From Saccoglossus kowalevskii (taxonomy: Eukaryota > Hemichordata > Enteropneusta > Harrimaniidae): a stretch of 31,839 bases of DNA. The position numbers and the translations under genes were made by a program. Positions 3,301 to 31,226 of this stretch are shown here, in pieces. The notes under the pieces are model-generated. The model saw nothing but the letters and a program-made list of their open reading frames with translations, did not search any database and was not told where the DNA came from. Numbering within the stretch: the stretch's first letter is position 1; the number at the start of each line of letters is the position of its first letter. The stretch covers positions 10,296 to 42,134 of the forward strand of contig NW_003130871.1 in NCBI RefSeq assembly GCF_000003605.2. The letters are read 5' to 3'.

Positions 3301-4646
3301 ATATAGTGTCTTACAAGGTACTTTTTTATGTCTAGACAAATTAAAAAATTTACAATATTTTAGTCGTTTTTTTATCGGGGAAATGTGTTTTCATCATGGT
3401 CTATAAAAACTGCTACTAAAATCACATTTTATGCATATTATTTTATCATTTTTTGTCCTCACAAAACAGATTGTCAGTGAACCAAAACAGTTCACATACG
3501 GTACTATTGATTATTACTAAAACGAATAATTGTAGAATTTGAATTTTTCGTCTACTATATGTGCTAAAATATGCGTACATAACAAGTGAGTTAATATTCA
3601 GTTGGCAATTTCAGTTGTCCAGGTGATAGGACTATCCTTAGTGTCATTGGCCGATTTCCTACCATATATCTTTTAAAGTGGGGAGTCATCGTCTACGCAT
3701 GCGACAGATGGCCATAGCGTATCATTGTTTACAAACTAGTGTCTACCCATAAGTCTTTGCGTTTTTAGCGTGTGTTGTTTTCATCGCTTGGGACTCAATT
3801 CCTGCGCGTACACAAGTGATGACCCTCTCGCTTTAACATGATTGGTTGAGTTTTTCAACCATCATTTAAAATCTATAAAACATTAATAAATATTTCATAT
3901 AAAAAAACAGTCATGCCTTCATGAAATTTACTATATGTTTATGAGATGAGAAAAAGTAAGCAGGCTGAGCGTTATGTACCGGTATGAATGCAAGAATGGT
4001 GGGGGAAACTCCATAGTTTTTGGTTTGTGAACTTCACTGGGCTTGCCTTATAATGGCACAGGATCAGAAAAACAATTAATTGTGTTTCTGGGTACTCACA
4101 TGAGTTATTTAAAATAAAATGTGCACATCAGAGCTTTAGATTTTGGTCAGGATTTTTAAAAGAAAAATTAAAAAAAAAAATCATGAAAAAATAATTATAA
4201 ATACTAATACACTAACAAATTTTTCATTTTTTTTTACGACCTTATCTCAAGGAATGGAATTAGGAATGGAATGGAGATTTAATCTACAAGTACTCACTTT
4301 AAAAATATTTTGACTTTCAGCATCTTCGAAACTTGTACTCAATAAAGTCAATTTGTCCTCAAATATAGACTGCAAAGCTGTCAACTGAAGAAGAAAGATT
4401 CGTTTGCCATCCTACATCCTGGCGTGTTACCATGGTTACATACACTCAAAATAAGAAAACACTGAATATACTGTTTCAACGGGTCTAGTAAGTAAACACA
4501 AAACAAAAAGAAAATACAATTATATTGACCTTTCTGAAGGTAAAAACACTTACCTCGTCTTCTTGTTCTTGTAAATTTTCCTCGCAAACCGCTTTCAGTT
4601 TCACAAGTTCATCGGATTCGGAAGGTAATACGCCCCCTACCGCCAT
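173..4646 (-). CDS. RNF14: RNF14-type RBR E3 ubiquitin ligase, 5' part (exons 1-5), partial
   Basis: Five minus-strand exons (4646-4554, 4384-4298, 2742-2604, 1322-1088, 304-173) join in frame to 228 complete codons plus two bases. Junction phases 0, 0, 1 and 2 all match and all introns have GT/AG ends. Residues about 29-184 form an RWD domain: it opens with QEDELTALQSIFEDK, has the diagnostic YPSDDPP (YPxxxPP) at 132-138, then QLSALCRHLDAMW and a W-x-x-x-L-K-x-E-S-L end. Order and spacing follow animal RNF14 (ARA54). The tail PRALPTCVDLQKSIIQIL corresponds to the helix before RING1. In known RNF14 (about 470 residues in human) the RBR module then ubiquitylates substrates; the family acts in clearing stalled or crosslinked translation complexes, with the RWD as docking domain, and was first described as an androgen-receptor coactivator. 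All catalytic cysteines lie left of base 1, so activity cannot be judged. A lineage-specific RNF14-like paralogue is the main alternative. Confidence 0.92.
305..1087 (-). other. RNF14-type gene, intron 4
   Basis: This 783-base AT-rich intron separates exons 4 and 5. The plus-strand open frames in it (398-685, 765-1223) have no codon bias, repeats or similarity I recognise and are read as chance. No repeat element recognised. Confidence 0.7.
1088..1322 (-). CDS. RNF14: RNF14-type gene, coding exon 4 (core of RWD domain, residues 108-184)
   Basis: The acceptor is TTTTTTCCACCAG|GTAAAAG and the donor TTTGAG|GTACGT. The 235 bases are 2 + 77 codons + 2, completing a Gly codon split with exon 3 and leaving phase 2. 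This is the most conserved part: LTPLQINVTFPLSYPSDDPP with the YPxxxPP turn, then EWLDGGQLSALCRHLDAMW and VYSWVDWLKNESL. It is close in order and spacing to the RNF14 RWD domain. A GTG in the middle (1296) is an internal Val codon, not a start. Confidence 0.93.
1323..2603 (-). other. RNF14-type gene, intron 3
   Basis: This 1281-base intron contains one copy of a diverged repeat at about 1561-1790, whose partner is in intron 2. Apart from that nothing recognisable; open frames are short and AT-rich. Confidence 0.7.
1561..1790. repeat. Diverged dispersed repeat, copy 1
   Basis: The segment shares an ordered set of blocks with 3164-3395: a GGTCAC start, a TTTTACCAT...CTATGG block, ATATCTCAA, TGAAAAAA followed by ATAT, and AAGG.(A/G)TACTTTTTT, then an A/T-rich tail. 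Spacing is nearly the same in both. Both copies lie inside introns of the RNF14-type gene. The family is not identified. Confidence 0.5.
2604..2742 (-). CDS. RNF14: RNF14-type gene, coding exon 3 (residues 61-106)
   Basis: The acceptor is GTTTTGCAG|CTT and the donor TTCAG|GTATGT. The exon is 46 codons plus one base (phase 1). It encodes LLIPVQLSGDHIEIEAWMP, fitting a first beta strand of the RWD, followed by a Ser-rich loop (SSTQALSSKSESGRP). RNF14 proteins have a variable insertion here, so the loop is expected to diverge. Open frames on the plus strand over this exon are shadows. Confidence 0.88.
3164..3395. repeat. Diverged dispersed repeat, copy 2
   Basis: The partner of 1561-1790, in the same orientation, with the same block order (GGTCAC, TTTTACCAT, GCTATGG, ATATCTCAA, TGAAAAAAAGATATAT, AAGGTACTTTTTT). 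Either an old intragenic duplication or two insertions of one element. Confidence 0.5.
3675..3834. mobile_element. MITE-like inverted-repeat element, family C, copy 1
   Basis: About 160 bp. The ends form imperfect inverted repeats: AAAGTGGGGAGTCATC at the left and, read on the other strand from the right, AAAGCGAGAGGGTCATC. The interior (CCATAGCGTATCATTG, TTTACAAAC, CTTTGCGTTTTTAGCGTG, GGGACTCAATTCC) is nearly identical to 19935-20094. It lies in intron 2 of the RNF14-type gene. It encodes no protein, so a non-autonomous DNA transposon is the likely reading. Confidence 0.65.
4298..4384 (-). CDS. RNF14: RNF14-type gene, coding exon 2 (residues 32-60)
   Basis: The acceptor is TTCTTCTTCAG|TTG and the donor AAA|GTGAGT. 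The 87-base exon is exactly 29 codons, phase 0 at both ends. It encodes LTALQSIFEDK, the conserved first helix of RWD domains of the RNF14 class (E-L-x-A-L-x-S-I-F/Y), then an acidic stretch ending AESQNIFK. Intron 1 upstream is only 169 bases. Confidence 0.9.
4554..4646 (-). CDS. RNF14: RNF14-type gene, coding exon 1 (residues 1-31)
   Basis: The start is the ATG at 4646-4644 on the minus strand. An in-frame TAA lies 24 bases upstream (4670-4668) with no other in-frame ATG between, so this start is well supported. The exon encodes an acidic, mostly helical N-terminus (MAVGGVLPSESDEL...) ending in LQEQEDE, which leads into the first helix of the RWD domain. The donor is GAG|GTAAGT, phase 0, at 4554/4553. 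The start lies in a run reading ATGGCGG. Confidence 0.9.
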
Positions 4647-4651
4647 TACTC
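4641..4651 (-). promoter_or_regulatory. YY1-like ATGGCGG motif over the RNF14-type start codon
   Basis: On the minus strand the start context is AGTAATGGCGGTAGG. The ATGGCGG core matches the YY1 and translation-initiator (TISU) core. The bases before the ATG do not fit the strict TISU consensus. Seen as a sequence match only. Confidence 0.3.
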
Positions 4652-5208
4652 TGGAACCAGAACCGGGTTAAAGTTGGCTTTAATACGGTCGGAAAACAAA
4701 ATCAAAGGGGTTTATAACATCGGCTTTAACACTAGCATCAAGCTTCAATGCAATACACAGAAATAAGAACACCTAAATCTGGCGTTTCAACCTCGCCACT
4801 TTACCGCTGAATTTCGAAACCTCACGCAATCACTGATTATGTCGATCATCTGACCTGATTAACCCAACAACCTCGTTCCATAAATTAACCTTATCTGATC
4901 CGTAATCGGAATTAATATTCATATTGAAATGGTTTTGACAAACAACAGTTTTATGTTTATAGTATTGTAAACAATACTGTTTGAATCGTATAGAAATAAT
5001 TCTATCTATTGAGAAATCGAATTTATAAAACATTATGCTGTGAGCAAGGATAATAAACTTTCAAACTCGCGACCTCTCAGACAATACTAGATAATTATGT
5101 GTTGTGTTTTAATCACAACACGGAAAAAAGCATCAAAATGTACTTATTGATACTAATAACATGATTAGAGACAACATGATCTTATAAATATGTAGGCCAT
5201 ACCGGCGT
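4647..5208. other. Spacer upstream of the RNF14-type gene, presumed 5' UTR and promoter
   Basis: The bases next to the start (4620-4720) are richer in CpG than the surroundings, fitting a minus-strand 5' UTR. No TATA box can be assigned with confidence. The remainder to the tRNA is AT-rich with no recognised feature. Confidence 0.4.
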
Positions 5209-5292
5209 GTCAGGATGGCCGAGCGGTCTAAGGCGCTGCGTTCAGGTCGCAGTCTACTCTTGTAGGCGTGGGTTCGAATCCCACTTCTGACA
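5209..5292 (+). tRNA. tRNA-Leu(CAG): tRNA-Leu (anticodon CAG)
   Basis: A complete 84-base class II tRNA without intron. The acceptor stem GTCAGGA pairs with TTCTGAC (one G-U), with discriminator A at 5292. The A box reads TGGCCGAGCGG and the B box GGTTCGAATCC. The anticodon stem CTGCG/CGCAG encloses loop TTCAGGT, so the anticodon is CAG at 5243-5245 (reads CUG). The long variable arm (TCTACTCTTGTAGG) is typical of tRNA-Leu. All arms pair, so it is probably functional. It lies about 560 bases upstream of the RNF14-type start and points away from it. Confidence 0.97.
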
Positions 5293-6263
5293 ATAACAAT
5301 TTTGGAAGCCACCCACGGGAGTTAATTACTCGAATTTAACTTTGACTATGTACATTGATACATACCTCCACGTTTGTGTTCGATACATTCAGTAGACATA
5401 TGTAATGACAGTTTCAATAAAAAACGTCTGAAAACATGCGTACTGGAATTCATTTTAATTTGCCATGATTGCTGGTGGTTTTGTTAAATTTCCTGTATAA
5501 ATTAATCACAAAAGTGTGGCCAGGTTTGCATTCAATCAAGAATTTTGTTTTAAATTCATGAGCATAAAATGTGAAAGAAAAATAATGTATCTGTTTATCA
5601 GTATTATAGTATTTACATTGTCTAAATTTAGTCCTAGTCTAAATCACAGCCATTCTGTATCTAAACCGCAAAACATTAAACATCTCAGTTACCACGCAGA
5701 GTGGATTTCAAAATGGTTCACCCTTATAAAATCAGTGTTTTACGCAATATCAATACATCTAATAATTATTTACTAGTAGCATATAGTTTATTTCCGTGTA
5801 TGCGCAACATGTGTTCTCCGTATCGTGATTCTATGACGATCGACGTGTCTAAAGTTCGCTGGGTAATAATAGCGTTATCGTGCTCGGAGTGTTTACGTTT
5901 GTAGCCAGCTGTCGCCACTCCAACGAATGAGGCGTGCCAAATACTTATAAGGGTGTGATCGTAGAATGCAACGCCAGATCCATTTATTTTTCAGTGTCTT
6001 CAAGACCAAGATACAAAACAACGTTTGCTCGCTGAGTATTGGGAGAAAATAAAGTTTGTTTAAAATCGCGCCGAATTCGGTTCACGTCGGGGAGACACGA
6101 CTCACCCCTGAACATAATGGTTTGTTCTCCACCCTAATGAACCCAAACTGTGAGAGACCTTCGTCCTTGGTCAAATTCAGGATATATCGTGCTCTGTGTA
6201 TGCTGTGATTTCTCACATAGAACCTCTGCTACATTGCACAGAATTCGCTGACACAAAATCGTC
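5293..6263. other. Spacer between tRNA-Leu and a CpG-rich patch
   Basis: AT-rich to about 5800, then clearly richer in CpG to the end. A TATA-like word (CTTATAAGGG) at about 5944 could be a core promoter for plus-strand transcription through 6264. An AATAAA at 6048-6053 is also present. Short upstream ATG frames occur at 6117 and 6137. No protein similarity recognised. Confidence 0.3.
5300..5303 (+). terminator. RNA polymerase III terminator of tRNA-Leu
   Basis: A TTTT run on the coding strand 8 bases after the end of the tRNA, the normal Pol III stop signal. Confidence 0.7.
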
Positions 6264-6405
6264 ATGATACGACAGAATGGGGGCGACACTGGTGAGTTCC
6301 TGAAGGTGCCAAACTTTTGCCGGACGATTCGCCAGGAAGTGACTCCGACGCGCCAGAGTTTTCTGTGCCAGCCCGCCGTAAACACGGCAAAGGCCGATCG
6401 AGAAG
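6264..6405 (+). CDS. Candidate first coding exon of an unrecognised gene
   Basis: ATG at 6264 follows an in-frame TGA (6249-6251) and opens 47 codons to a donor-like GAAG|GTGGGT at 6405/6406 (phase 1). Without splicing the frame stops at TAA 6411-6413 after 49 codons. The peptide starts MIRQNGGDTGEFLKVPNF and is rich in Arg, Gln and Thr. Third positions are about 60% G+C in an AT-rich window, and the CpG-rich setting suits a promoter-proximal exon. No downstream exon was found and I recognise no family. An overlapping minus-strand open frame (6134-6463) means the coding strand is not certain. Confidence 0.3.
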
Positions 6406-6413
6406 GTGGGTAA

Positions 6414-7726
6414 CTGATTTTCACAAATTCTTGTCGAATAAATAAATCAGGCGATAATGACACTGTGGATGGTATGTAGTCCTTAATATCAGTTTAATAA
6501 CTATACACGATAACCTAGCAGAACAATACACGCTTGAACTTTAAAAGTTAGTAGTGTGATGCGTAGACGTCAAAGTATGCAGCAACATGGCAGAACACCT
6601 ACGTACGTGTCATCGTATCCTTTGACCCCTTCTCCCGTGTTTGTTATTCCATCGTCGAGAGAGGGAACTATTTACAAATTGACAATATATCACACTATTC
6701 CGATCTGTATCTGTCCTATATATATCAATAGAATGATATTTACAAAATGTTAATTTAAATGTTATTTCAGGGAATAAATCTCACGAATTGATGAAATACT
6801 TGTAAAGAGGAACCTTGTCATTCTATATGAGACATTAGAATCAGGAAAATCCCTTCATTTTCCCGGTTGTCAGCTAAAGATGTTCACATCACATCAGAAA
6901 AATAAAAAAATGAAAAAAATATAAAATATTGTAAAGTAAAAGCACAATGTTAAACTTAATTAATAGTGGTTTAAAAATAAAAATAAAAAAACGTTTGTGT
7001 ACATTTTTAAAAACAGGTAGACAAGAAACTTTTTTTTTTAATATTTAATGTAATTTTAAATATAAACCGTCTTACAAGTGTATGTTTCATTCAAAATTGT
7101 GACTATTTAGAATATCAAAGCATATTCTCTTACTGTATTACAATACAACATTCACAGTCCTGTAAAGCAAAAGCTGACACATTGGCATTCAGTACTAGTG
7201 CCACTATTGATATTTTTTTTCATTAATACTTTTTAAATATCTGTCAAGCTGACCATTTGAAACAAAATCTGTCTACAGGAATTTTTGTTTTTGTTTTAGA
7301 TGATATAATTACTAGCTAGTTAGTATATACGGTAACTTAGGTACCAATAAATTTAATATCATGTTACAGTGTTACTTACTCCTACATGTATAGCATTTTA
7401 AGGATACCATCCTACCAAAGTACTTTAAAATCTGTATTAAACTGGGACTGCTTAAATGCAATAGAGCTACACATATAAGAAATGGTGATTTTTTTGGTTC
7501 TCATTTGTTCAAAATAAATAAGTGAAGCTTCTACATGTATCAGAGAGGAATATTTTAATCCAGCTTTAATGGTATACATGGGATCAGCACAGCAAGAGTA
7601 TCAACAACAGACCAACTCATACCTCATTTATAGTACATCTTCCTGGTCCAACGGTTTGGTGTAGAATGCCTAGATCTGAGTAAAATGGTGAAAATATTAC
7701 AATATTCCTTGGAACATAATTTTTTT
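6414..7726. other. AT-rich spacer, nothing recognised
   Basis: Low-complexity A/T runs and chance open frames only. No splice-bounded exon, RNA gene or repeat element could be supported. Confidence 0.5.
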
Positions 7727-8069: not shown

Positions 8070-9987
8070 GACTGCTAGGAAGGTCTTTAAGAAAAAAATA
8101 AAATTGTATGTGACTCACTGTATAGTTCCTCGAGGCATAAACAAAAAAACAAAATGTTGTTGCCCCTTTTGTTTATCAAGTAAGAATTTCATTCCAGATG
8201 TTTTTCATAAATACTACATGTACCCCCCCCCCCATATATCAGTGTATGATGACACGTCAGTAAATTAACCAAACTACTTATGTCACAGCAAATCTTTGTG
8301 CAACAGTTGTGTCTCATATCAACTTAAAGGGCACACATGAAATCCCGCTTCTGTAGAGAAGCTTAAGAAAATATCCCATTTTCCATCAAAATTATTGGGT
8401 TCTACACTGTAAGTCAGCAAAGGCATGTTTTTGCTTATAAACCCAACTCTCTCCATTTGAAATCTGACTAAATTTGAATAATTGGAACCGATTGACGAGG
8501 AAGGGTCTTCGTTCTTTCTTGGTGCATGCAAACACTTGCTCATCCGACAGAAATTAGAACAGCCAAATTAGCTGAAGTCAAACTCATTCATACAGTGTAA
8601 ACTGCCACTGTTTATAAATATTTAAGCATATAAGTACATGTAATTGATAACATACATGCCTTTGCTGACTTCAATGGAACTTTTCTAGTGTTTATAAAGA
8701 AATTGCAAACTGAAGCATCATTCAGAATTTGACAAGACAACTCCATTTTTTTTAAATAACCTGAAAAAACATCTTGTGAAAATCTTAAATATTAATTATA
8801 ATTCATGAAAAATTTGAAACAAGAGAAAATTAGCGCTCTTATTTATTGAATCAGATAATTTACTGCAATGACTTCTGGGAGATTCTCATGTACATATGGT
8901 GAACTCCATAGTGAGAAGGGAGAAGGTCAAAGGGCACTCACCTCATGTTGAGAAAGATCAATTATCACTATAGAAATGACATTTTTATATTTATTTCAAC
9001 ATCGTTAGCTTCCTCAGTGTGTCAATAATGTGTTGTCATCTTAGTCTTACATAGAGAATATTGTGCATTAATGCTGTATTCCCTTCAAGTAGACCATGGC
9101 ACCTAAACAAAACATAGCTCACAACCAAGATCAAATAATAATGGTATATAGTTAATCAGCTCAACATTTTGAAGTTAACTTTCCTCATCTTTTACAAAAT
9201 AAACACGCGTAAAATTTCAATATTTCTCAAGAAACTTTGATCAAGACCTGTTGTAGCCAAGGATACTGTAGATTATGTCCATTCAGTCAAAAATTAAGAA
9301 ATAATTATATAGAAAAATACCTAAAAATGTTGAAGTTTTGGCGAGAAAAATCAATGCATTAAAAGGAAAGTCCAATGTCAATTTTTTGATTGCAATCTGA
9401 AAGTATAATCAAAATACCGGTAGAACTATTTACAGTGTTCTCTCCAGAAATTAAAACTACGGTGGTGGTAAAAATGTACATATTAATTTGCATAGCATTT
9501 GCATAATTATTTTAAACAGAAATTGTGATGATTATTAAAATATTCATTAAAATATTCACTCACACAATTTTTCACTTACATTACAATAAAATTGTGGTAG
9601 TCAAGTTAATGAATGTGGCGATGCCAGATTAGTGTGCTAGTAAAACAAAGTACTGTTGCTTTACCATGTGATGTGTATCTAGACCCTGAAGCTTTGACAA
9701 CACTTACCTGGACCACCTTCTGTTGTAAAAAACAGATACATGTACTTAGTAGTTAGATATCACCAGTTACACTGGAAGACAAAGAATGATGTCATCTGTT
9801 GTTATGTAATCTCCCATTTGTTGGTCTAAGCAGGAAGAATTAGATAATTCCTCTATTGTTCGCATAACTGAGATGCATTATGGTAGTACCACAATGTAAA
9901 TAATTATTAGGTACCATATTTGCACTATTTGAAGCACATCTTCAATATAAGCTCATGTAAATTAAAAATTGAATTTGGTATATTTTT
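8070..9987. other. AT-rich spacer, nothing coding recognised
   Basis: Contains a C run (8223-8233) and chance open frames such as 8319-8543 on the minus strand, which lacks splice context or recognisable motifs. No gene supported. Confidence 0.5.
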
Positions 9988-10869
9988 ACCATAGAAACAC
10001 CTTTGTCATTTACATATTAATAAAGTACAATGTACATGCACTACTAATAGAGCAAATACAGTATTGTATACTGAGTCATTAAAATATTTTTTATGTTGAC
10101 CTTAGAAACACCTTTGTCATTTACATATTAAGTACAATGTACATGCACTACTAATAGAGCAAATACAGTATTGTATACTGAGTCATTAAAATATTACTTA
10201 TTTTGACCATAGAAACACCTCTGTCATTTATGTAAGTACATGCACTACTAATAGAGCAAATACAGTATCGTATACTGAATCATTAAAATATTACTTATTT
10301 TGTCCATAGAAACACCTCTGTCATTTATGTAAGTACATGCACTACTAATAGAGCAAATACAGTATTGTATACTGAGTCATTAAAATATTATTTATGTTGA
10401 CCTTAGAAACACCTTTGTCATTTACATATTAAGTACAATGTACATGTACATGCACTACTAATAGAGCAAATACAGTATTGTATACTGAGTCATTAAAATA
10501 TTATTTATGTTGACCATAGAAACAGCTTTGTCATTTACATATTAAGTACATGCACTACTAATAGAGCAAATACAGTATTGTATACTGAGTCATTAAAATA
10601 TTACTCATGTTAACCATAGAAACAGCTTTGTCATTTACATATTACGTACATGTACTACTAATAGAGCAAATACAGTATTGTATACTGAGTCATTAAAATA
10701 TTACTTATTTTTACCATAGAAACACCTTTGTCATTTATATGTTAAGTACAATGTACATGCACTACTAATAGAGCAAATACAGTATTGTATACTGAATCAT
10801 TAAAATATTACTCATGTTGACCATAGAAACACCTTTGTAATTTACATAAGTACATGCACTACTAATAGA
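9988..10869. repeat. Minisatellite, nine tandem units of about 97-113 bp
   Basis: Units begin with ACCATAGAAACACC-like blocks at 9988, 10099, 10206, 10303, 10400, 10513, 10613, 10713 and 10820. Each continues through TTTGTCATTTACATATTAAG, TACATGCACTACTAATAGAG, CAAATACAGTATTGTATACT and GAGTCATTAAAATATT. Length changes come from gain or loss of AATGTACATG in the middle. The last unit is truncated. No open frame runs through the array. Confidence 0.93.
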
Positions 10870-11977
10870 TTGAATACTGTAGCATTAACTTCTTAATTTT
10901 AATTGTTATATTTTTATATTTTCTGTGTGCAACCAGCTCATTAACTGCCCACATTTATTGGCAGAGCTTACTCCCACAGGTAGTAGATGGGATTTATTTT
11001 CACTTGTTTCTCTGACACATGTAGTTATATTAAATCACAGGGAATATATAGAATTTATTGTTTCCTTCACAAACCAGTGAATTTAAAACTTCTTTCTTAA
11101 ATATCTCTTCAACAATTTACATTAAATCTGCTAAAATTCAAACCTGTGAATACTGTTTTCTTTAATTTAGTGATAAAATCAGAAATTCTGCTGCAGTCCT
11201 AAATTCGCTAAGTCACGGCGACTTTCATGAAATTTTGATCTTATTAATGCCATCAAATCGTAAAAGTGTTAGCTTCGAAAATTAAATTAGTGTTAAACTT
11301 TACATAGATAGATCATATCATTCATTCTTCAAATTGCTAATAATTCATTGGTTGACATGTGAATTTATGGAAAACTGAACTGTCTGTCATGTCTTTAATT
11401 GAAACAGATGTATTCTGAGTTATGTTTCATTTTCAATTGAATTACCATGTAAATAATATACTTCTGTAATCCATTTTTCTGCTAAAAATGTTTGAAGAGC
11501 GTTTACGTGGACACAATTTTGTGAAATTCACTGTGACTTGATGTATTTAATAAGGACCCCAGTGAAATGTTCCAGTCTTATTACTGGTATGTTATTTTTT
11601 ACATTTTCTATGACTTACAAATTATTTGTCTCTCTCAGAGTTGAAGCAGTTTACATTACAGGTAATTATTATTGGAGGTGCTGACTGGTCAATAGCATCT
11701 ACCATGTCAAATACTACTTTGTAATGCAACTGCTGTTGAATAATCACTTGTATGCATGTGTGCGTGTGCTGAAATTTAATTCCATTTATATGCACTTGTG
11801 TAGCTTTCCTGGATATACAGCTTTTGATAATATATCAGACATTGTTTTTGAGGGCAGTACTTGTAATGGAATCTTATGAACCCTTACCCTTTCAATAATT
11901 AACACATTCTGCAAGGAGATATGTACATGTACTGGTAAAGAACATCATCAACTTCTGTGCAGTTATAAACATGTAAC
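10870..11977. other. AT-rich spacer, nothing recognised
   Basis: No splice-bounded open frame, RNA gene or repeated element seen. Confidence 0.5.
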
Positions 11978-12189
11978 TACTGTAGAATACTTTATTTTCG
12001 CTTGGAATTTATTTTCGCTATTTTCGCTGAAGGGATGATTCCGTGAAAATAAAATCCAGCGAATATACTTTTTTTCCTATATTTCACATTAAACTCATGA
12101 AAAATCAGTGAAAATAAATTCCAAGCAAAACGCCCAAAAAGCCTTTTCAGCGAAAATTAATTCCAGCAAAAATAAAGTATTCCACAGTA
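11978..12189. mobile_element. MITE-like foldback element, family A, copy 1 (fullest copy)
   Basis: 212 bp. The left end TACTGTAGAATACTTTATTT and the right end read on the other strand (TACTGTGGAATACTTTATTT) are near-perfect inverted repeats of about 30 bp. The inside carries ATTTTCGCT / GGAATT words repeated in both orientations and GGGATGATTCCGTG. There is no coding capacity. Related copies are at 15438, 16049 and 31097. Size, long inverted repeats and copy number suit a MITE. Confidence 0.85.
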
Positions 12190-15437: not shown

Positions 15438-15641
15438 TACTGTAGAATACTTTATTTTCACTTGGATTTTATTTCCACTGTTTTCGCTGAAGGGATGATT
15501 CCATGAGAATAAAATCTAGCAAATATACTTTTTTTTCTATATTTCACCTTAAACTCATCAAAAGTCAGTGAAAATAAATTCCATACAAAACGCCCAAAAA
15601 AGCCTTTTCAGCAAAAATTAATTCCAGCGAATTCCACAGTA
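15438..15641. mobile_element. MITE-like foldback element, family A, copy 2
   Basis: 204 bp, same orientation and interior as the copy at 11978 (GAAGGGATGATTCC, CAAAACGCCCAAAAA, AGCCTTTTCAGC). The right arm has lost about 15 bases (the AAAATAAAGT part), so the right end reads GCGAATTCCACAGTA. It lies 25 bp from family B. Confidence 0.8.
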
Positions 15642-16048
15642 CCGGTATAAAATTGAGGTTTATATGATGAAACTTATCTGAACTGCTTGTACATGTATGC
15701 ATGTGATATCCCTGAGCCCTAAAGCATTCAGTTTGGGGAAACGAGTGAGCTTTGTGTAGTGAGTGAATGAATGAGTTTTCTTTGAGTCGAGCATGCAAGT
15801 GTTTTGCCAAAATGGCTGCCATTTTAAATCATGTTACCATCATGGATGTACATGTAAACAAAATCCTGGTACTATGGAATTATTACATGAATTCCACTTA
15901 TACATATATACATGAAGGCCAGTATGGTGATCTTGTCAAACCCATACAGAATACCATCTTAATACATGTATATAATTTAGTGAGATACAGTATAACAGCA
16001 GAAATGCCAGCGAAGAGTATCGTAAAAGCATCATGATTCCATTTTAGT

Positions 16049-16255
16049 TACTGTAAAATACTTTATTTTCACTTGGAATTAGTTTTCACTGTTTAATAAT
16101 AATAATTCAGTGAAAATAAAATTCAGTGAATATACCTTTTTTCCTTTATTTTACATTCAACTCATCGAAAATCAGTGAAAATGAATTCCATACAAAACAC
16201 CAAAAAAGCATTTTCAGCGAAAATTAATTCCAGCTTAAATAAAGTATTTTACAGT
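16049..16255. mobile_element. MITE-like foldback element, family A, copy 3
   Basis: 207 bp. Left end TACTGTAAAATACTTTATTT, right end AAATAAAGTATTTTACAGT, a near-perfect inverted pair. The interior matches the other copies but the GGGATGATTCC segment is replaced by an AT-rich run (TTTAATAATAATAATTCAGTG). Confidence 0.82.
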
Positions 16256-21909: not shown

Positions 21910-24102
21910 TTATTTTTGTTTCCTGTATTCACATACATTTTAGTGTCTTGAATTTCTGATCGAAAGGAATAAAACAAACTACGGGGGTATGTGGTTACAT
22001 GAAAATAAACAACATTGCAACCTATTTCGTCAACGAGTTCAGTAAGAATTCCCCAAAATGGATAAGAAAAAGAATGAGCATCTATAATTGTAATATTTCA
22101 TTTTGAGTTTTAGTATGACGCTTAAGTTTCTTTAATTCTAATTGTGCAAATATCATTGACAATTTTGTGATGGTTTCATTTCCAAATGCTTCCATCCATC
22201 TTTATTATCGACTATGATGCATAATGATTGTCACTCAGTATTCTATCAACATTTCAACAGATGGCATCTTTATTGTTAACAGCGCTATAATAATATATAC
22301 ATATGGATCCTGGTTGCTAGGTAACCAAACATCACCTGTTACAATCATTGTCTACATAGCCTACCGGGAACTGGCTTTGTTTTCCCTGGCAAGCAAATGA
22401 TAGCTGAATGTGGGTTTTAAACAATTAAACAAAAAGTAAACACTAAAAATAATGTTGTGTGCTTCTGAAACCTAGCATAGTAAATGCATGAGACCCTCGC
22501 TGTGTGATGGTGAAGGAAACCCAAACTGCAAAATATATTTTTTGAGATTTCTGTGTCACTGTGGTATTTTGGAAGAATGCTATTTAACAAGTTTATTTTT
22601 TTTAACAACTGCAAGAAGTTTTTTCATTAACAAGTTTTTAATATGGTATCAATTTGAAATTATTTCTGTTATTATACATTAGAAATTATTATTATTGTAC
22701 ATTAGACTATAAAATTATGTTGTTATTTCAAGTGAGATTGGTTTCCTTGTATTTGAAATACCACCAGAAATATAGAAATTTTTTAATCTTATATTTCCCA
22801 GGGTTTGTTTAATTAATAAATAAATTAGTTAGTTTAATTTCTAGTAGACCAATTCTGAATTTAATTCATCGTTCAAATAACATGGTTTTGAAAGCCTGCT
22901 AAGGTACATGTATTGTGGTGGAGCAGTGGCTAAATAAACAAACCTTTGCTAGTAAAAAATAATGTACATGTAATTAACCCTACTACTGTACAGGATTATA
23001 TGCATATCCTTTAAGAGTCATGTTTAAGGCCAACTAGGTCTGATGTAGTAGAACTTCACTGGCATTTGATTTGTCAGACAAAATATATTTACCGGTAATG
23101 CTAACATTAATGATCAATAAATTTTTAAAAATTGAAAAGAAGAAGCATATTTATTATTGTCAGTGCTATATTGTAGACGTGGAGCAGTGGGTTAATTAAT
23201 CTGGTTTGCTAGTGTCTAGTCATGATGATAGATACCATAGATAATAATGTGCAGAACTGCTGTGTAGTATGGTTTGGTTTTATGTGCTTTATTTAAATGA
23301 TGTAAAACAATGCTATGAATAAACAGAAAAGACTGGGCAGTGAGTGAGTGAGTGGATGGATGGGTGGGTGAGCTTGTGTATGTGGGTTAGGGTAGAGAAT
23401 ACAAGACCAGAGCTCAATCGCTGAACTTTTTTATGGTTAGAAAAGTTAAAGCTGATGTTGTAGTTTAATTACACTATTTGCTAAATATCAAAAGCACACT
23501 TACATTGTGCCCCGGTAATTCCAAAAATGTATTTATTATACGCCAGATTATTGAAATCTAATTCGTTTTGGCTATATATATCGACACACCTCAGCCATAT
23601 ATGTAAGTGCATATACGTATGCTGCTTGTAGGCCATATATGATTAACACAAATTAGTGGTTATTATTGAAGCCCCACTGTCGTTACCCCAATGTCATTAC
23701 GCGATACATGTCCAAATTTAATGTTTAAGCAATGTATTGTATGGTATACATCACATTGGATCCACGTCGATCATGATTCCCAGAATAAAAATTGATAAAT
23801 GAACAATTATATGCATAAATAAATAAATAAATAAAGTTATTGTCTTTATCTAACTGACTTGATGCGTTGTAAGAGTATACAATGTGAGCCAAGTGTGGTG
23901 CCCTCAGTGGTGATGTTTAGTCACCCTTTTATTTTCTGAATGGATTACATCTTATTATGTACAAATTTATAATTAACTTTGTATACTACATCATTTCTAG
24001 TACTGTATTTTTTGTAACAAATGCTGTTACACTATTAATGTGAAAATAAACTGAAAAAAATAGCAGATGGTCATGATAATGTATTTTGGTTGTATTTTTC
24101 AG
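21910..24102. other. Spacer upstream of the EFCAB14-like exon, nothing coding recognised
   Basis: Contains a GAGTGAGTGG / ATGGGTGGGTG low-complexity stretch (23340-23372) and an AAAT repeat (23816-23836). I searched for a basic MKKRKEL-type start exon with a phase 2 donor that could feed the exon at 24103 and did not find one; MDKKKNEHL at 22058 stops after nine codons. Confidence 0.4.
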
Positions 24103-24287
24103 AAGGGCTGCTGCGATGAAAGACGATGGATGTTGTGATTGTTGGGCAGTGCTGAAAGTATTCTCCTGGGTCATTGTATTTGGTTGTATTGCCACACTAG
24201 CGTGGCTAACGTACAGTTTGAAATTAGACATGGATAACCTTCGTAGTGAGTTTGACCGCTTTAAGCATCACCAGACTCCCCCTATAG
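24103..24287 (+). CDS. EFCAB14-like transmembrane exon, diverged duplicate upstream of the main gene
   Basis: Acceptor TTGTATTTTTCAG|AAGG, donor CCTATAG|GTAAGT. The 185 bases are 1 + 61 codons + 1, the same entry and exit phases as EFCAB14 exon 2 (29423-29571). An in-frame TAA at 24077 lies just inside the intron. The peptide runs from RAAAMKDDGCCDC through a hydrophobic segment (VFSWVIVFGCIATLAWL) to SLKLDMDNLRSEFDRF. It aligns without gaps to exon 2: CxxC, then Trp 24 residues after the first Cys, then LKxDxDxLR, about 26% identity. Known EFCAB14 proteins keep CxxC, the Trp and LKxDxDxL at this spacing. An internal ATG at 24116 could start translation if the leader is non-coding. It could be an alternative N-terminal exon of EFCAB14 or part of a tandem paralogue. 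Confidence 0.75.
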
Positions 24288-27260
24288 GTAAGTATTAAGA
24301 CTGTCCGGTCACCGGTTATTGCGCCGGACACATGTGATCAACCGGCGTCCTGGGTGAGTATGGGTTACAGATTCAATGGCAAGGCCCGAGCCACTGGTCG
24401 GGATTAATTCACTTATAATTCCATTTTTTGTGTGAACCTTAAGTCCTGCAGTTCGACCAGACCTGGTTGACGCTGGGGTTGTGCACATAAATTGTCATTG
24501 CAATAGGAAGATGTTCTCCAAGGCCGACTCCTAGTCCCAAACAGGAAATATGTGTATGTGACTTAACGTTGATTAATACAGTATCATTTTTGTTTTCTAA
24601 CCAATTATGTGTTCAAGTAATTTGCCATTTTCTGTATAACCTAAAGCCCATCTTGAAGATTCAGTGTAGTAATAAAAATTGTATCATATTTAATATCTAA
24701 AAGATTGAAAAGTTCAAATCCATTTGCCTACTACCGTACTATGAAATACACAAACTGATTTTTTGAATTTAAAAACAAAAATATTTTTGAAATTTAAGAA
24801 AAAAGTATGAGTTTAAAGTGGACGCACACGATTTATTTGTTATGTATTAGCCTATAACGAACAACCAATAGGTCCATGATCCTTTTTTTCTTCTTTAAAT
24901 AGTAGTTTGTGACACATTTTTCATTATCTTATGTTTAGAAAAAAATATCATGGTTACAGTGTATCTCAATATCAGCAGTTTCTAAAAACATTCATGAAAC
25001 TGCATTGATCGACAATAATAGTCTATATGTACATGTACCCATCACCAATTCGCAAATAGAAATACTAGTACCCTGGTAGTCAAAAAAAGGTAAGTGTTGA
25101 GTTGTAGTGCCATCAGTAGGTTTCCCTGCTTCATGACGTTCTGATGATTTTACGAACATTTACGCAGCAAAATCAACCTAGAGTCACCTGGCACAAAACC
25201 GATTTAAAATGTTGGAATTTATTCTCAACATGTAGTTGTATGAAGAATCTAACTGGCTGATATATTTACCAGAGAGAATAAACAAACCCAAATGTGGTAA
25301 TGATGTTGAGTATGAATATTGAGACAGGTTGATTTGCAGGTGTCAACAATTGACTTGGTCAGCCATTACATGTATGTTTCAATTCTTCTTTTATTCTCTT
25401 CTGTTCTTCTGTTCTGATGATAACATGGAAATTTGTGTGTATGAATGCAATACATGCTGCTTGACATACTATACCTGGTATTCTATTACCGATAGAAACA
25501 ATGCACTTACGAAATGACAGGTTTGTCTGTGCTCAAAATGAATCATATTGTAATGATCCAAGATACAATTAATGCAATTCCCGGCTTATGTGAGCTTCTA
25601 TTAGAAATGCACTTCGTATAAGAGTAAATATGGGTTGCTGTAACGTGTATGTCATTTTGTTAATGAAAGACTGAAGACAGGCATTCAAAGATTAGGGTAC
25701 ATGTATATTAGTGATGAGTAGTTCACACTCATTGTCCCAAGTCCAGTCAGAATCAGTCAGAGTGTGAACAAACTGTCATGGGGAATACAAGTATACCTTT
25801 TCTATAGTGCCCCCTCTAACAACAAATATTTATGTGTTAATGGGTGACTGCAATGTGTTCAAAATTAAAAATGTGTTTTTTGTAATAATTCATTTTTTAT
25901 TGGTGAACAGCTCTAGAATGAACATGGTCAGTTTCATTCAAGCAGAGTTTTATGTCTTGTGGGGAAGATGTATGGTCTACCTTATAATAGATATTTAACG
26001 TTTTTATCTTCATACACGGGCAGTTCACCTGCTATTCCATGCATACTGGTAGAATATGTTCAGTTAAGGTGTTGAGGTGACTAATGCAACAAGACCCAAG
26101 TTAAGAGTTTCTCTGGCAATGTCGATGCTGGTCGAATTAATATTTAATACATTTTTTTGAGAGAGACTCTGAATCATAAATGCGTAATTTAGATCCTACC
26201 AGTAGATCATAAAATAAAACAAATTTGCATTCTAGATCATTTCCTCAGAAACACCTCTGATATATTGAAATGGCAAACTTTTTCAGAACCATACTATAAT
26301 GGTGTGCAGTTTCACATATTCTAGAACATACAGATGTACAAATGCTGTCAGATATCACACCATCAATACTGTAGTTGTGGCAGCAAGGAACAAACATGAA
26401 GAAACAGTGTTTCGTCTTGAATGAAGTCTTATGATAGTACTTCACATGTATGTCTGCTTCCAAAGTTATTTATGTCACTCACGCCATCTAGTGTTGAAAT
26501 AGGGAATTTTTTTTTAGTATGTTGTATGGTGGCGCTATTGCAACTTTCCTTGGCCTTGTCAATTACTAGTAGTCATTAGTTAGCGAGATGACTTGCAACT
26601 TTGTGTTATGTTTGACATATTGTGTATAATTCACTATTTCCATCATTATGATCAATATGATAATTTGCAAATCTTTTATACATATTCAATAGCAATTTTT
26701 CTTTTCTTTGTCTACATTGTATGTAATTCAAGAAAAAAATCTGCACTTTACACCCTTATCTAGTCTCATAATGGAATGATCTAAACTATGCGTGTGTCAA
26801 TGGAACGGCGCTGTCAAGTCGAGATTGGGTAAAAACCGAAGTGTATTGCAAAGTGGCAAGCCATCTTGCTAACTATTAATATTTGAATAATTGTCAAAAA
26901 GGCAGTGAAGGAGAAGAGGACTTTTTATATGTATACTTTGTGTGAATATATTCGATCCCTCCCTCCTTTTAAATAAATAAATCCCAATAGCATTTATGTT
27001 TTGAGCTTAATGTTCAATTATGTATGCGTGTTGAAATGATGAATTGAAACGTGGAAGTTCATATAATTTAATATACAATGTTATTGTTTGCATCGATTAG
27101 CTTAAAGCCTGTATGATTGCAGTTGTTTTAATACACTCAGACCACTAAAATGCTTGCGCAAGTTTTTGTTTTGATAAGAACAAAATAGTTTTGTTGTTTT
27201 TTCAATCGCCAGGAACTTGGATTCTTGAAAGCGTCTTGGATAATTTAATCTGACTTTCAA
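24288..27260. other. Spacer or intron between the EFCAB14-like exon and the EFCAB14 promoter
   Basis: The first 250 bases (24300-24540) are unusually rich in CCGG and CpG for the window (GTCCGGTCACCGG...GCGCCGGAC is partly self-complementary) but have stops in all plus frames. The rest is AT-rich. No coiled-coil or EF-hand exons were recognised that would complete a separate paralogue. A short inverted pair GTTCACACTC / GAGTGTGAAC occurs at 25720-25768. Confidence 0.4.
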
Positions 27261-27268
27261 TGACGTCA
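27261..27268. promoter_or_regulatory. Full CRE palindrome TGACGTCA
   Basis: TGACGTCA, a perfect CREB/ATF site, 480 bases upstream of the EFCAB14 start. Sequence match only. Confidence 0.4.
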
Positions 27269-27303
27269 CCTATTCTTCTGAATCGAATTCCGCCATCTAA
27301 TGC

Positions 27304-27311
27304 TCACGTGA
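27304..27311. promoter_or_regulatory. E-box TCACGTGA (CLEAR/M-box core)
   Basis: TCACGTGA, the palindromic core bound by bHLH-zip factors of the MiT/USF type, 430 bases upstream of the EFCAB14 start. Sequence match only. Confidence 0.35.
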
Positions 27312-27493
27312 TATGTAACGGCTGATCTCGTTGGTCGGAGTCATACTGCTATTAATAATTATTTGACGATGATTTCGGATTTTGTTTAGTTAACCTGGCC
27401 ATTTCTTGTGAATTTGTTTCAAATGCTGTTCAATCCGTTGATATTCTGTGGTTTGCTGTATTTCTCACTCGTGAATCTTGTTCTCGGTAAACA

Positions 27494-27517
27494 ACTTCCG
27501 GGAACGATCGAGCCAAT
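27494..27517. promoter_or_regulatory. ETS site and CCAAT box in the EFCAB14 promoter
   Basis: ACTTCCGG (27494-27501, ETS) and CCAAT (27513-27517) stand 12 bases apart in a CpG-rich stretch, with no TATA box. This is the usual make-up of a housekeeping promoter, about 230 bases before the start codon. Confidence 0.45.
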
Positions 27518-27697
27518 CGCGTAGCTCGTGTCACCGCATGTTTTCCACTCGGTGGCGAACGTCGGTATCAGTGTGACGACGGCGGTGTAAGCTGGAATTA
27601 GGTTCATGTGGTGTACGCAACAGGAAACCCACTAGGTCAGGGAATTGTACTCAGTTATTACGTGATCTGTTCACAAACATTTTAACACTGGATCCAC

Positions 27698-27745
27698 ATG
27701 GGAATAACGGTGTGGACGTTCAATTTAAGACGGGTAAAAAGATGA
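27698..27745 (+). promoter_or_regulatory. Upstream ORF ending in an ATGA overlap with the EFCAB14 start
   Basis: ATG at 27698 opens 15 codons (MGITVWTFNLRRVKR) that stop at TGA 27743-27745, sharing bases with the main ATG at 27742-27744. If in the mRNA, it should lower initiation at the main start or feed it by termination-reinitiation. A shorter frame (27606-27635) lies upstream. Confidence 0.45.
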
Positions 27746-27893
27746 AAAAACGCAAGGAGCTTGACGCCCTTGTCGGCAATGGCAAGTTGGTCAAGAAGAA
27801 AAAACGATCAGACACTGGTCATGAACTGCTTCGAATGCACGACTCGTCGTCCGAGATAGAAGAATTTTGCGCAAGGAAAACTGTTATCAGAAA
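27742..27893 (+). CDS. EFCAB14: EFCAB14 coding exon 1 (start codon, residues 1-50)
   Basis: The ATG at 27742 starts MKKRKELDALVG, almost the same as the start of vertebrate EFCAB14 (MKKRKELNALIG), which fixes the start; an in-frame GTG at 27712 belongs to the 5' UTR. A Lys-rich run (KLVKKKKR) and an acidic Ser cluster (HDSSSEIEEF) follow, as in the family. The donor is AAA|GTAAGG at 27893/27894, phase 2. The exon encodes the cytosolic tail before the membrane segment. Read through, the frame stops at TAA 27895-27897, so the apparent 61-codon frame is not the whole protein. Confidence 0.92.
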
Positions 27894-29571
27894 GTAAGGA
27901 AATTGGTTGGCTTGTTGTCATTTATTTGGCTTTTCATGGCTGTTCACACGATTCACGAATTGTCCAGCGAGCTGTCACGCGTGAATAGCAAATGTTGACG
28001 GAATATAATTACGTGCCGTTCCATGCTGGGATAAGTCACAGTTCCGTGATAGAGCGACTGTTTTTCACATTTTGTGCGTTTTTTGTGGCGCAGATTCGCT
28101 AAATCTCTTCAAGGTTGGTCCATTATAATACTGGTTTGTGGAAATTTGTTCGGGCGTCGAATTAGTCGAAATTTTGAATCGGTATTGTTTATAAATGCAG
28201 TACACTCAGCTTGACCATTGTCACACTCAGAAGTTCACTGATAAATTGGAAGCACCATCAATTCATGGTTTACCGAGACCACACTAGCCTATATTATCGA
28301 TGTTACAAATCGACCCATAGAATATTATATATCAACACATCTATTTGATTATCCCACTAATCAGACAGTGTTGATATAATATCAGAAAAATTGTTCGATA
28401 TTATTTGAATTAAAACTGATTTATGATAAGCATTGATATCAGTTTGTCAGCCTGAACCAGTCACACACTAAATATTACAAGCATGATAATTTCCAACTTA
28501 TTGGTCTAAGGCTGTCTCAGTATAATAATTAGTGGTTTTCCATCGAAAACTGAAAAAATACAATAATAGAATATAATTATTAGCAAGAATTGTATAATCA
28601 GTTTCTTTATAGACAATAATGTATTAAATATGTATTTGGGCCCATAATTCTTAATTTTATTCTCAAATGAAACGCTGTCTATCTTTCTTAGGTTGCGGTA
28701 TTCAAATCTTGCTGGCCATAATTGCAAGTTGCTGCAATTTTCAATGAATAGGGATGTATGCAAAATAGATTTAAAATACCAGTGTTCCACCTTTACATAC
28801 AACTCAGTCACTGCTCCCTATTTTGCCTAATATAGTGCTAAAATTTAACAATCCTATAAGTATCAGTGCTATAATAAAAACAAACAATTAGTGATAGATG
28901 TTAATAACGTATATTTTTACATTTTTTTTTATCTTGCTGCTATTAATTTTTGAATCATGATTATCCTCCTTAACAAAAATTGGAAATGGCTTCGAGAAAT
29001 AGGGTTTCGTGTTCTCTGATAGAAGAATACAGGTTGCCTCAATTAATCAATAGCCAATGGGCTTAATAATTGCTTTGGCGGAAATATCTTGTTATAACAG
29101 TACTGCTAGAATTTCGGCTCAATAAATTTGTACTTTCCTCATTCTTGTGAAATTATCTTTATAGGACGGTGTGTCCTGAGAATTAAAACTTTTTTTCCAT
29201 CTGTGTTTCGTCACTTGTTTGATGTAAACTGTTCAGTGTGAATAGCTTTTCAAAATTCATCTCTTCTGTTTAGTCGCAATTGTTTTGTAAAAATGTTGAG
29301 TGAGCCAAAACATGGTGTAAGTATGCTGCGGACAGAATCGTGTGAACAGCCCAGTGAATATTTCTTCAAAACAATTTCCTTGATTTCTGTGGTGTTTTAC
29401 CAATATATTTATGTATATCCAGGCCGTCTAGGACGCGAATATGTGCGACATGCTTTCCCATCTGTGCATTCATACTGGTTGTAGCGTGTATAGCGGTATG
29501 TAGCGGACTTGTCTGGATGAACCTGGACTTGAAGAGAGATGTAGACCAACTTAGACATAGGCTTCAAAAAG
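27742..29571 (+). CDS. EFCAB14: EFCAB14, 5' part (exons 1-2), partial
   Basis: Exons 27742-27893 and 29423-29571 join in frame to 100 codons plus one base. The order is a basic/acidic cytosolic tail (about 1-55), a membrane segment (about 57-82), then the start of a charged heptad region. Vertebrate EFCAB14 is close to 500 residues, so about four fifths is missing to the right. Intron 1 is 1529 bases. Intron 2 exceeds 2.2 kb, since no third exon is recognised up to 31839. The related exon at 24103-24287 could splice into exon 3 in frame in place of exons 1 and 2. Confidence 0.92.
27894..29422 (+). other. EFCAB14 intron 1
   Basis: 1529 bases between a GTAAGG donor and a TATATCCAG acceptor. 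AT-rich; no repeat or nested gene recognised. Confidence 0.8.
29423..29571 (+). CDS. EFCAB14: EFCAB14 coding exon 2 (transmembrane segment)
   Basis: Acceptor TATGTATATCCAG|GCCG, donor AAAAAG|GTAAAG. The 149 bases are 1 + 49 codons + 1. The first base completes a Lys codon (AA|G) with exon 1. The peptide reads RICATCFPICAFILVVACIA, then VCSGLVWMNLDLKRDVDQLR. This matches EFCAB14: a Cys-rich membrane segment (CxxCxPxC), the Trp at its end and the LKxDxDxL start of the lumenal or extracellular coiled coil. The family's coiled coil and C-terminal EF-hand are encoded beyond the window. EFCAB14 is a single-pass membrane protein of poorly known role. Confidence 0.93.
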
Positions 29572-30817
29572 GTAAAGCAAGAAAACTAATTATGAGTATT
29601 CAAGTCCTGGTATGCATGTTTTCATGATTTCGATTGTGGAATTATTCCTATTCGCAGACGCCGTTGGCAATTATTCCTGTTCACAGGCGTTGTCATTGGA
29701 GATATTTCTGTTCATCACTTCTGTTTATGTATGCCGCAAGTAGCTACCAACAAGTGATCGGGAACTATATTTTATTACTTAATTAATTATTAGTATATGT
29801 ACACCTGCGTGTCCCAGCCAATTGAGCTGATCTAAATATAGCAAAACATACAAATTTCAGTATTCCATTAATTTTGTCTTGGTACTATACCTATTACAAG
29901 TGTGTCATGTGTTCTGCCATATGTTTAATATTTTACTATAAACAGAACACGCATATATATAGTACGCAGATACACTAGCACTGTAAGACATAATACTTGT
30001 CACACCCATAACTCTAATTCTAAGCCTGCCCCTCCACAGTGCCCTTCTCCATTTCAATTGTATATACCCCTTTTTAGATCACTTACAATTATTATGTATT
30101 TTTCTGGTTCATTATTTTTGTCTTACTGTATTTGGAGGAAATTTTCAATGTTGATATTTTTTGCGAAGGAGAAGTGACACATTGGGATTTTCCAGTTTCT
30201 GCTATATGTAGATTGTATTTGCTTTGTATGTTTGTTAGTAGTGCATACACTTACCTGGATGATAGATGTGTCTATGGCTAAATAAGTTTTATTTGATCGA
30301 TCCAACATACAATTTTTGGTTTATTTGCACTTTTGCTAGGTCAACATGGTGTCTATACACTAATACTAAAAGATGTGCATTTTCTCATCTATTATATTTA
30401 CATTCTCAAAATTAAAAATGCTCTTAAGATTGACTTGAGTTGACTCATTTTCATTGAGTGTTCAATTATTTGCTATGAATAAGAATTCATCATGAAGCAG
30501 AGTGAAAATCGAAAAGAAATATTAATTTTTCAATTAATTTCCGTATATTTGTACATTGATAAGTTGATTATCAGTACTCACCCTGTACTGCTTTTCCGTG
30601 TAATAGATTACAGGTATTTATAACCATTTCTTTTGTGGCCTTTATGATATATTTCACATAAAATGTTAATTGTGTTGCGTTGGCATTTAAAATTTAGTTA
30701 AAATGTTAGCAAGGTTATTAAAACCATGTCACATTGGCTTTACGTGATGTGTGTGTATGCAAGGTTAAAATGTCAACTTTATTAACCTTTTCACCACCAG
30801 ACTTTCACAAGCAAATT

Positions 30818-30970: not shown

Positions 30971-31096
30971 TGAAAAGTAAAGAGGGAACTCGTGGTGACA
31001 AGGTTAAGGAAGTATGAATGTCATCTCTTCAATAGCTTCTAGGAATGCAGGAAATGTTTGGAAATATGTACCATATTTGTTATACTATATATAATA

Positions 31097-31226
31097 TACT
31101 GTGAAATACTTTATTTTTGCTGGAATTAGTTTTGGCTGAAAAGGCTTTTTGGGAGTTTATTTTCACGGAATCATCCCTACAGCGAAATAAGCGAAAAAAT
31201 AAATTCCAAGCGAAGTATTCTACAGT
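31097..31226. mobile_element. MITE-like foldback element, family A, shortened copy 4, inverted
   Basis: 130 bp with both ends kept (TACTGTGAAATACTTTATTT and GAAGTATTCTACAGTA). Interior blocks run in opposite order to the other copies: GAAAAGGCTTTTTGGG, then TTTCACGGAATCATCCCTAC. About 80 bp between these blocks is missing. It lies downstream of EFCAB14 exon 2. A plus-strand open frame over it (31117-31338) is a by-product. Confidence 0.8.

Follow-up and report, generated by a model that had tools for sequence, protein, structure and literature searches.

A second, ancient copy of the membrane-anchor exon of EFCAB14, called exon 2' here, lies upstream of the exon that carries the EFCAB14 start codon in Saccoglossus kowalevskii. 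Judging from the genomic sequence, we hold with modest confidence that exon 2' serves as an alternative membrane-anchor exon of EFCAB14 and stems from an old duplication of the 5' part of the gene. EFCAB14 (KIAA0494) is an animal single-pass membrane protein with a coiled coil and EF-hands. The gene is little studied; among the EFCAB14/KIAA0494 papers listed, no title or abstract opening mentions isoforms, promoters, or another membrane exon of this gene. The window, that is, the whole stretch of DNA analyzed, comprises 31,839 nucleotides (contig C2278, positions 10296 to 42134), and the downstream contig was also read for exons 3 to 5. The human EFCAB14 protein, used as the query sequence throughout, has one membrane segment, whereas the locus described here has two membrane exons. 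The features discussed below are collected in Table 1.

Table 1. Features of the EFCAB14 locus and its upstream region, in window coordinates
Feature	Position	Strand	Remarks
RWD gene, first coding exon	4554..4650	-	ATG at about 4646
RWD gene, further exons	about 4384-4298, 2742-2604, 1322-1088, about 304-173	-	Two placed by eye
CpG-rich stretch	5801..6600	.	GC to 0.53 and CpG observed/expected to 1.55 (200-base steps); whole window, 0.58
Candidate exon 1'	6264..6405	+	Uncertain; donor AAG/GTGGGT at 6405, 10.7 bits
Exon 2'	24103..24287	+	Second copy of EFCAB14 membrane-anchor exon; 185 nt; full codons RAAAMKDDGCCDCWAVLKVFSWVIVFGCIATLAWLTYSLKLDMDNLRSEFDRFKHHQTPPI
ATG in exon 2'	24116..24118	+	Context GGCTGCTGCG followed by ATGAAA; possible start if the upstream exon is non-coding
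EFCAB14 exon 1	27742..27893	+	Starts MKKRKELDALVG...; leaves 2 bases; human match, tblastn E 1e-5
EFCAB14 exon 2, usual membrane exon	29423..29571	+	Leaves 1 base; human match, tblastn E 2e-11, 43% identity
EFCAB14 exon 3	40112-40260	+	Start at C2278:50407; beyond window; needs 2 bases
EFCAB14 exon 4	41285-41383	+	Beyond exon 3
EFCAB14 exon 5	43158-43280	+	Past window end
Further EFCAB14 exon candidates	45812-46060, 47395-47538		Downstream contig

A second membrane exon upstream of EFCAB14

Exons 1 to 5 of the gene match human EFCAB14. Exons 1 and 2 joined (100 residues) are 43% identical to it, and exons 3 to 5 match it at an E value of 6e-12 (blastp, two-sequence comparison). Positions 31840 to 34058 and 48061 to 73109 read N, and the EF-hand end of the gene falls outside the readable contig; the EF-hands that we assume for this protein are those of the human one. 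Together with one later candidate, exons 3 to 5 matched 44 Pfam families (best E, 2.4e-5); the 25 of these matches that were listed fell below the cut-offs and were mostly of coiled-coil types, with no EF-hand among them. Pfam offered no family for exon 2' or exon 2, and exons 1 and 2 had no match among solved structures. The one Pfam match of exon 1 was to a bacterial toxin family; with an E value of 0.099 and 13.1 bits versus a cut-off of 25, it was rejected as a chance match in a lysine-rich stretch.

A sequence-only reading of the window had placed an EFCAB14-like membrane exon upstream of the ATG exon, sharing its entry and exit phases with exon 2 and having CxxC, a Trp at +24, and LKxDxDxLR conserved in an ungapped alignment. 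The analysis bears this out, coordinates included. In the ungapped alignment to exon 2, all three elements are present, 11 of 43 residues are identical, and the BLOSUM62 score is 57; the next-best independent place for an exon 2 match, in six frames across the whole window, scores 35. At both exons the entry needs one base to complete a codon and the exit leaves one base. When the window was searched by tblastn, exon 2' recovered exon 2 at an E value of 5e-5, and human EFCAB14 recovered exon 2' at 0.024. Exon 2' codes for a hydrophobic helix and then a charged LKxDxDxL stretch, as does exon 2, and its maximum 19-residue hydropathy (2.12; exon 2, 2.71) fits a membrane helix. The alignments made by MAFFT and BLAST open a gap of 3 residues within the membrane segment, and the CxxC pairing, which needs the ungapped alignment, is therefore less certain than the homology itself.

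Hydrophobic helices look alike, and an open frame could resemble a membrane exon by chance. We consider this very improbable for exon 2', since a score of 57 was reached by none of 2000 residue shuffles of its peptide (maximum, 52) and by none of 200 Markov-1 versions of positions 6501 to 27300 (maximum, 51); moreover, the match runs past the helix into LKxDxDxLR, and both phases are shared.

The splice sites and the pattern of conservation bear on whether exon 2' is still in use. Of the two strong splice sites described in the sequence-only reading, the donor at 24287 is as strong as claimed (rank 4 of 1959 GT sites; the exon 2 donor has rank 35), but the acceptor at 24103 is of no more than fair strength (rank 91 of 1497 AG sites; the exon 2 acceptor has rank 43), both scored with a generic matrix made for this analysis. 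The 60 bases 5' of 24103 contain no branch point that strictly fits yUnAy. The further suggestion that selection has held this module is supported indirectly. Of the 18 positions at which the human protein and exon 2 agree in the ungapped alignment, exon 2' retains 9; of the remaining 25, it retains 2 (Fisher P = 0.0035). Exon 2' could nevertheless be a relic, formerly used and now silent; its low identity to exon 2, its fair acceptor, and the lack of an intact frame from an ATG through the strong donor of candidate exon 1' would all suit such a history. We judge this quite unlikely, because an unconstrained exon at such divergence would rarely be open (a 61-codon stretch stays open by chance at 0.0085 with the base composition found here) and at the same time retain its two splice sites, its two phases, and a donor of this rank, and because the retention of mainly conserved positions is unexpected without constraint.

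Exon prediction added little to this picture. A strict-threshold scan listed neither exon 2' nor exon 2; a loose scan gave 30.1 to a candidate at 24288 to 24396, 28.6 to exon 2', and 22.0 to exon 2. The scan separates true exons poorly, and the combined exon score cannot decide the matter alone. On the plus strand, 4 of the 1959 GT sites score at least 10 bits (6291, 6405, 24287, and 25089). In a minus-strand control, 10 donors score at least 10 bits and 2 of them (4554 and 2604) lie in recognized exons; donor strength alone is thus poor evidence, because the other 8 have no recognized exon. The strongest plus-strand donor, at 25089 (AAG/GTAAGT, 11.9 bits), has no recognized coding exon in front of it and perhaps belongs to a non-coding exon of an upstream transcript.

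Proposed joining of exon 2' to the EFCAB14 body

In the isoform that we favor, donor 24287 would be spliced to exon 3, and EFCAB14 exons 1 and 2 would be skipped. Exon 3 needs two bases and so accepts exon 2 and exon 2' alike. Acceptors at 40028, 40043, and 40061 score better than the one at 40112 and share its phase, so the phase of exon 3 does not depend on which acceptor is used. The chain of exons 2', 3, 4, and 5 stays open from the ATG at 24116, which is a possible protein start; alternatively, coding could begin in an upstream exon whose end is at 6405. Joining exon 2' to exon 2, on the other hand, leads to a premature stop, so that a full protein from an upstream-exon transcript must skip exon 2. 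Inclusion of both membrane exons breaks the frame and the RNA would probably be destroyed; hence, the two exons behave as mutually exclusive. Skipping exon 2 would need regulation, since that exon has its own acceptor, and this counts against the isoform. Splicing from exon 2' to an acceptor 5' of the exon 1 ATG was considered for all sites above 0 bits in 27301 to 27741 and rejected, as the sites of compatible phase are weak (27341, 1.6 bits; 27641, 3.6 bits).

A search of the genome (572 Mb, 4830 contigs) points to a single strong EFCAB14 body. Exons 3 to 5 found 34 places, of which 3 were strong and all belonged to this EFCAB14 (E 5e-24 to 2.5e-12); the other 31 were weak, with E values from 0.03 upward, and 29 of these lay in contig C589. 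The human protein found six places, namely exon 2 at an E value of 3.1e-8 and, more weakly, five places in C589, and did not recover exon 1, exon 2', or exons 3 to 5. Genome-wide, the DNA and the protein of exon 2' each recover only themselves, and the same is true of exon 2. Because the two membrane exons fail to recover each other, this search is blunt and diverged copies could be missed. Contig C589 contains long open frames in which weak matches to EFCAB14 exons 3 to 5 recur many times; these frames perhaps encode a repetitive coiled-coil protein.

The interval between exon 2' and exon 1 was searched with exons 3 to 5 and two later candidates, by the type of search in which exon 2' recovers exon 2. 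No later paralogue exon appeared in 24288 to 27741 (best E, 0.98), although strongly diverged ones could be missed; this agrees, at the sensitivity used, with the earlier claim that no other paralogue exons were recognized between 24288 and 27700. Coiled-coil or EF-hand exons of its own, as expected of a separate paralogue, were thus not seen behind exon 2' in this interval, and one strong body was found in the genome; use of exon 2' with that body is favored. A separate tandem gene would instead be a duplicate of the 5' part whose last exon, short or unrelated, lies somewhere from 24288 to 27.3 kb; it would encode a small membrane protein with one helix. The duplication is old enough for this, the very strong donor at 25089 lacks a recognized exon, and a weak phase-compatible terminal frame begins at 24452 (27 codons). 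Its score of 13.6, the best in 24288 to 27741, is no better than the 16.3 obtained in the in-window part of intron 2, and the body searches just described also speak against such a gene, which we regard as unlikely.

The sequence-only reading had proposed an isoform that skips exons 1 and 2. The phase of exon 3, the stop on joining exon 2' to exon 2, and the single strong body all agree with this proposal, and the isoform itself is what these features predict. It would arise by promoter choice combined with exon skipping, and its cytosolic tail and membrane helix would differ from the usual ones while the coiled-coil body (with EF-hands, going by the human protein) would be the same.

Searches for relatives extended to prokaryote and virus collections, in which an alignment of exons 1 and 2 gave 60 pattern matches in genome contigs and 102 in viral contigs, none confirmed. 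Exon 2' had no match in a plasmid collection. As all of these collections consist of prokaryotes, viruses, and plasmids, the outcome is silent on animal conservation.

The upstream CpG-rich region and a candidate first exon

Transcripts that include exon 2' would have to start upstream, most likely in the CpG-rich stretch near 6.2 kb, beside a minus-strand gene with an RWD domain (E 7.8e-13 with one exon and 8.7e-20 with the exons joined). The five exons of this gene run from about 4650 down to 173 and face away from EFCAB14. We take it to be RNF14-like; its RING part would fall in a contig stretch that reads N. Comparison with solved structures gave only weak matches, one at E 0.31 and one, an RWD protein, at E 0.82. 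A tRNA-Leu (anticodon CAG) is predicted at 5208 to 5293, a short way from where the coding part of the RWD gene starts.

CpG observed/expected exceeds 0.9 (400-base steps) mainly at 4401 to 7000 and at 27001 to 28400, the latter at EFCAB14 exon 1. Smaller places at 3401 to 4000, 23401 to 23800, and 29401 to 29800 reach 0.90 to 0.99, and one at 14201 is mostly N. The strong minus-strand donor at 6106 and the plus-strand donors at 6291 and 6405 point apart, as at a two-way promoter. Positions 5801 to 6600 are thus a possible two-way promoter for the RWD gene and an upstream EFCAB14 transcript, and donor 6106 may mark a non-coding first exon of the RWD gene. If the isoform exists, we see the case for and against this CpG-rich stretch as its promoter as evenly balanced. 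The first exon would end at 6405 (or at 6291 or 6409) and would be spliced over about 17.7 kb to 24103.

The neighboring donors 6291 and 6409 score 11.2 and 5.1 bits, respectively. An open frame at 6296 to 6405 reads VPEGAKLLPDDSPGSDSDAPEFSVPARRKHGKGRSR and leaves two bases, the phase that exon 2' needs. Its peptide resembles the acidic part of human EFCAB14 exon 1, but a TGA at 6293 to 6295 cuts this frame from any ATG, as assembled. The ATG at 6264 lies in another frame. Through donor 6409, it is in frame with exon 2'; through donor 6405, it leads to a TGA that overlaps the ATG at 24116 (ATGA), an overlap that could permit translation to restart and may be due to chance.

The resemblance of the exon 1' peptide to the human protein gave a score of 43, which was reached by 9 of 5000 shuffles and by none of 5325 open peptides taken from DNA simulated with matching composition. 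With the scores against this genome's own exon 1 and the human exon 1 summed, the peptide reached 62, the best after exon 1 itself among 164 donor-bounded peptides; the runner-up, before donor 24353, reached 58, so the lead is narrow. Against this genome's exon 1 alone the score is an unremarkable 19. The tblastn match to the human protein is weak (E 9.5), lies in an acidic stretch, and was noticed before it was tested. The 280 bases around exon 1' occur once in the genome. Composition-based coding scores near 6.2 to 6.4 kb were discarded, as multiple frames score high there, and so does the minus strand. Exon 1' may code for protein, either because the assembly or the allele differs here or by way of donor 6409; it may also be an untranslated leader or no exon at all. 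Granting the isoform, we think a coding exon 1' possible but less likely than not.

A fuller arrangement would consist of two complete 5' cassettes, each with a promoter, a tail exon, and a membrane exon, joined to one shared coiled-coil/EF-hand body. Promoter choice would then swap tail and anchor together, and the frame conflict between the membrane exons would enforce exclusivity. For the second cassette, the CpG-rich stretch and donors 6291 and 6405 are candidates for its own promoter and first exon, but through these donors no frame of the required phase runs intact from an ATG. We consider this arrangement rather doubtful.

Comparison with other variable 5' ends

Animal genes commonly have alternative first exons or duplicated exons. 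If the reading that we prefer is true, duplication in EFCAB14 has exchanged the membrane helix itself rather than a tail or an outer domain. The isoform could then alter the location of EFCAB14 or its pairing partners, and the role of the anchor would be directly testable by comparing location and partners for the same body on different helices.

The two-cassette layout proposed for EFCAB14 would be a two-member version of an arrangement like that of the chelicerate sDscam genes, in which repeated multi-exon 5' cassettes are joined to shared 3' exons and, per a section heading, have their own promoters (PMC4835542). There are also differences. The sDscam cassettes code for Ig domains, whereas exon 2' codes for a membrane anchor; several sDscam cassettes can be included without a frame shift, whereas inclusion of both membrane exons of EFCAB14 breaks the frame; and sDscam expression has been demonstrated (PMC4835542), whereas expression of exon 2' is a prediction. 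A second parallel comes from the DPP6/DPP10 and KChIP genes, which have variable N termini that arise from alternative promoters or first exons and precede a common core (PMC3973911). DPP6 and DPP10 are type II membrane proteins, and their membrane helix is part of the common core (PMC3973911); in EFCAB14, unlike in these proteins, the helix itself would be exchanged.

Repeats also occur in the window. Positions 9972 to 10903 hold a tandem array of 8 to 9 copies with a unit of about 100 bases and a spacing of 97 to 113. Dispersed repeats of about 170 bases lie at 11978 to 12147, 15438 to 15607, and 16045 to 16214, with an inverted one at 31087 to 31197; this family is perhaps a short mobile element.
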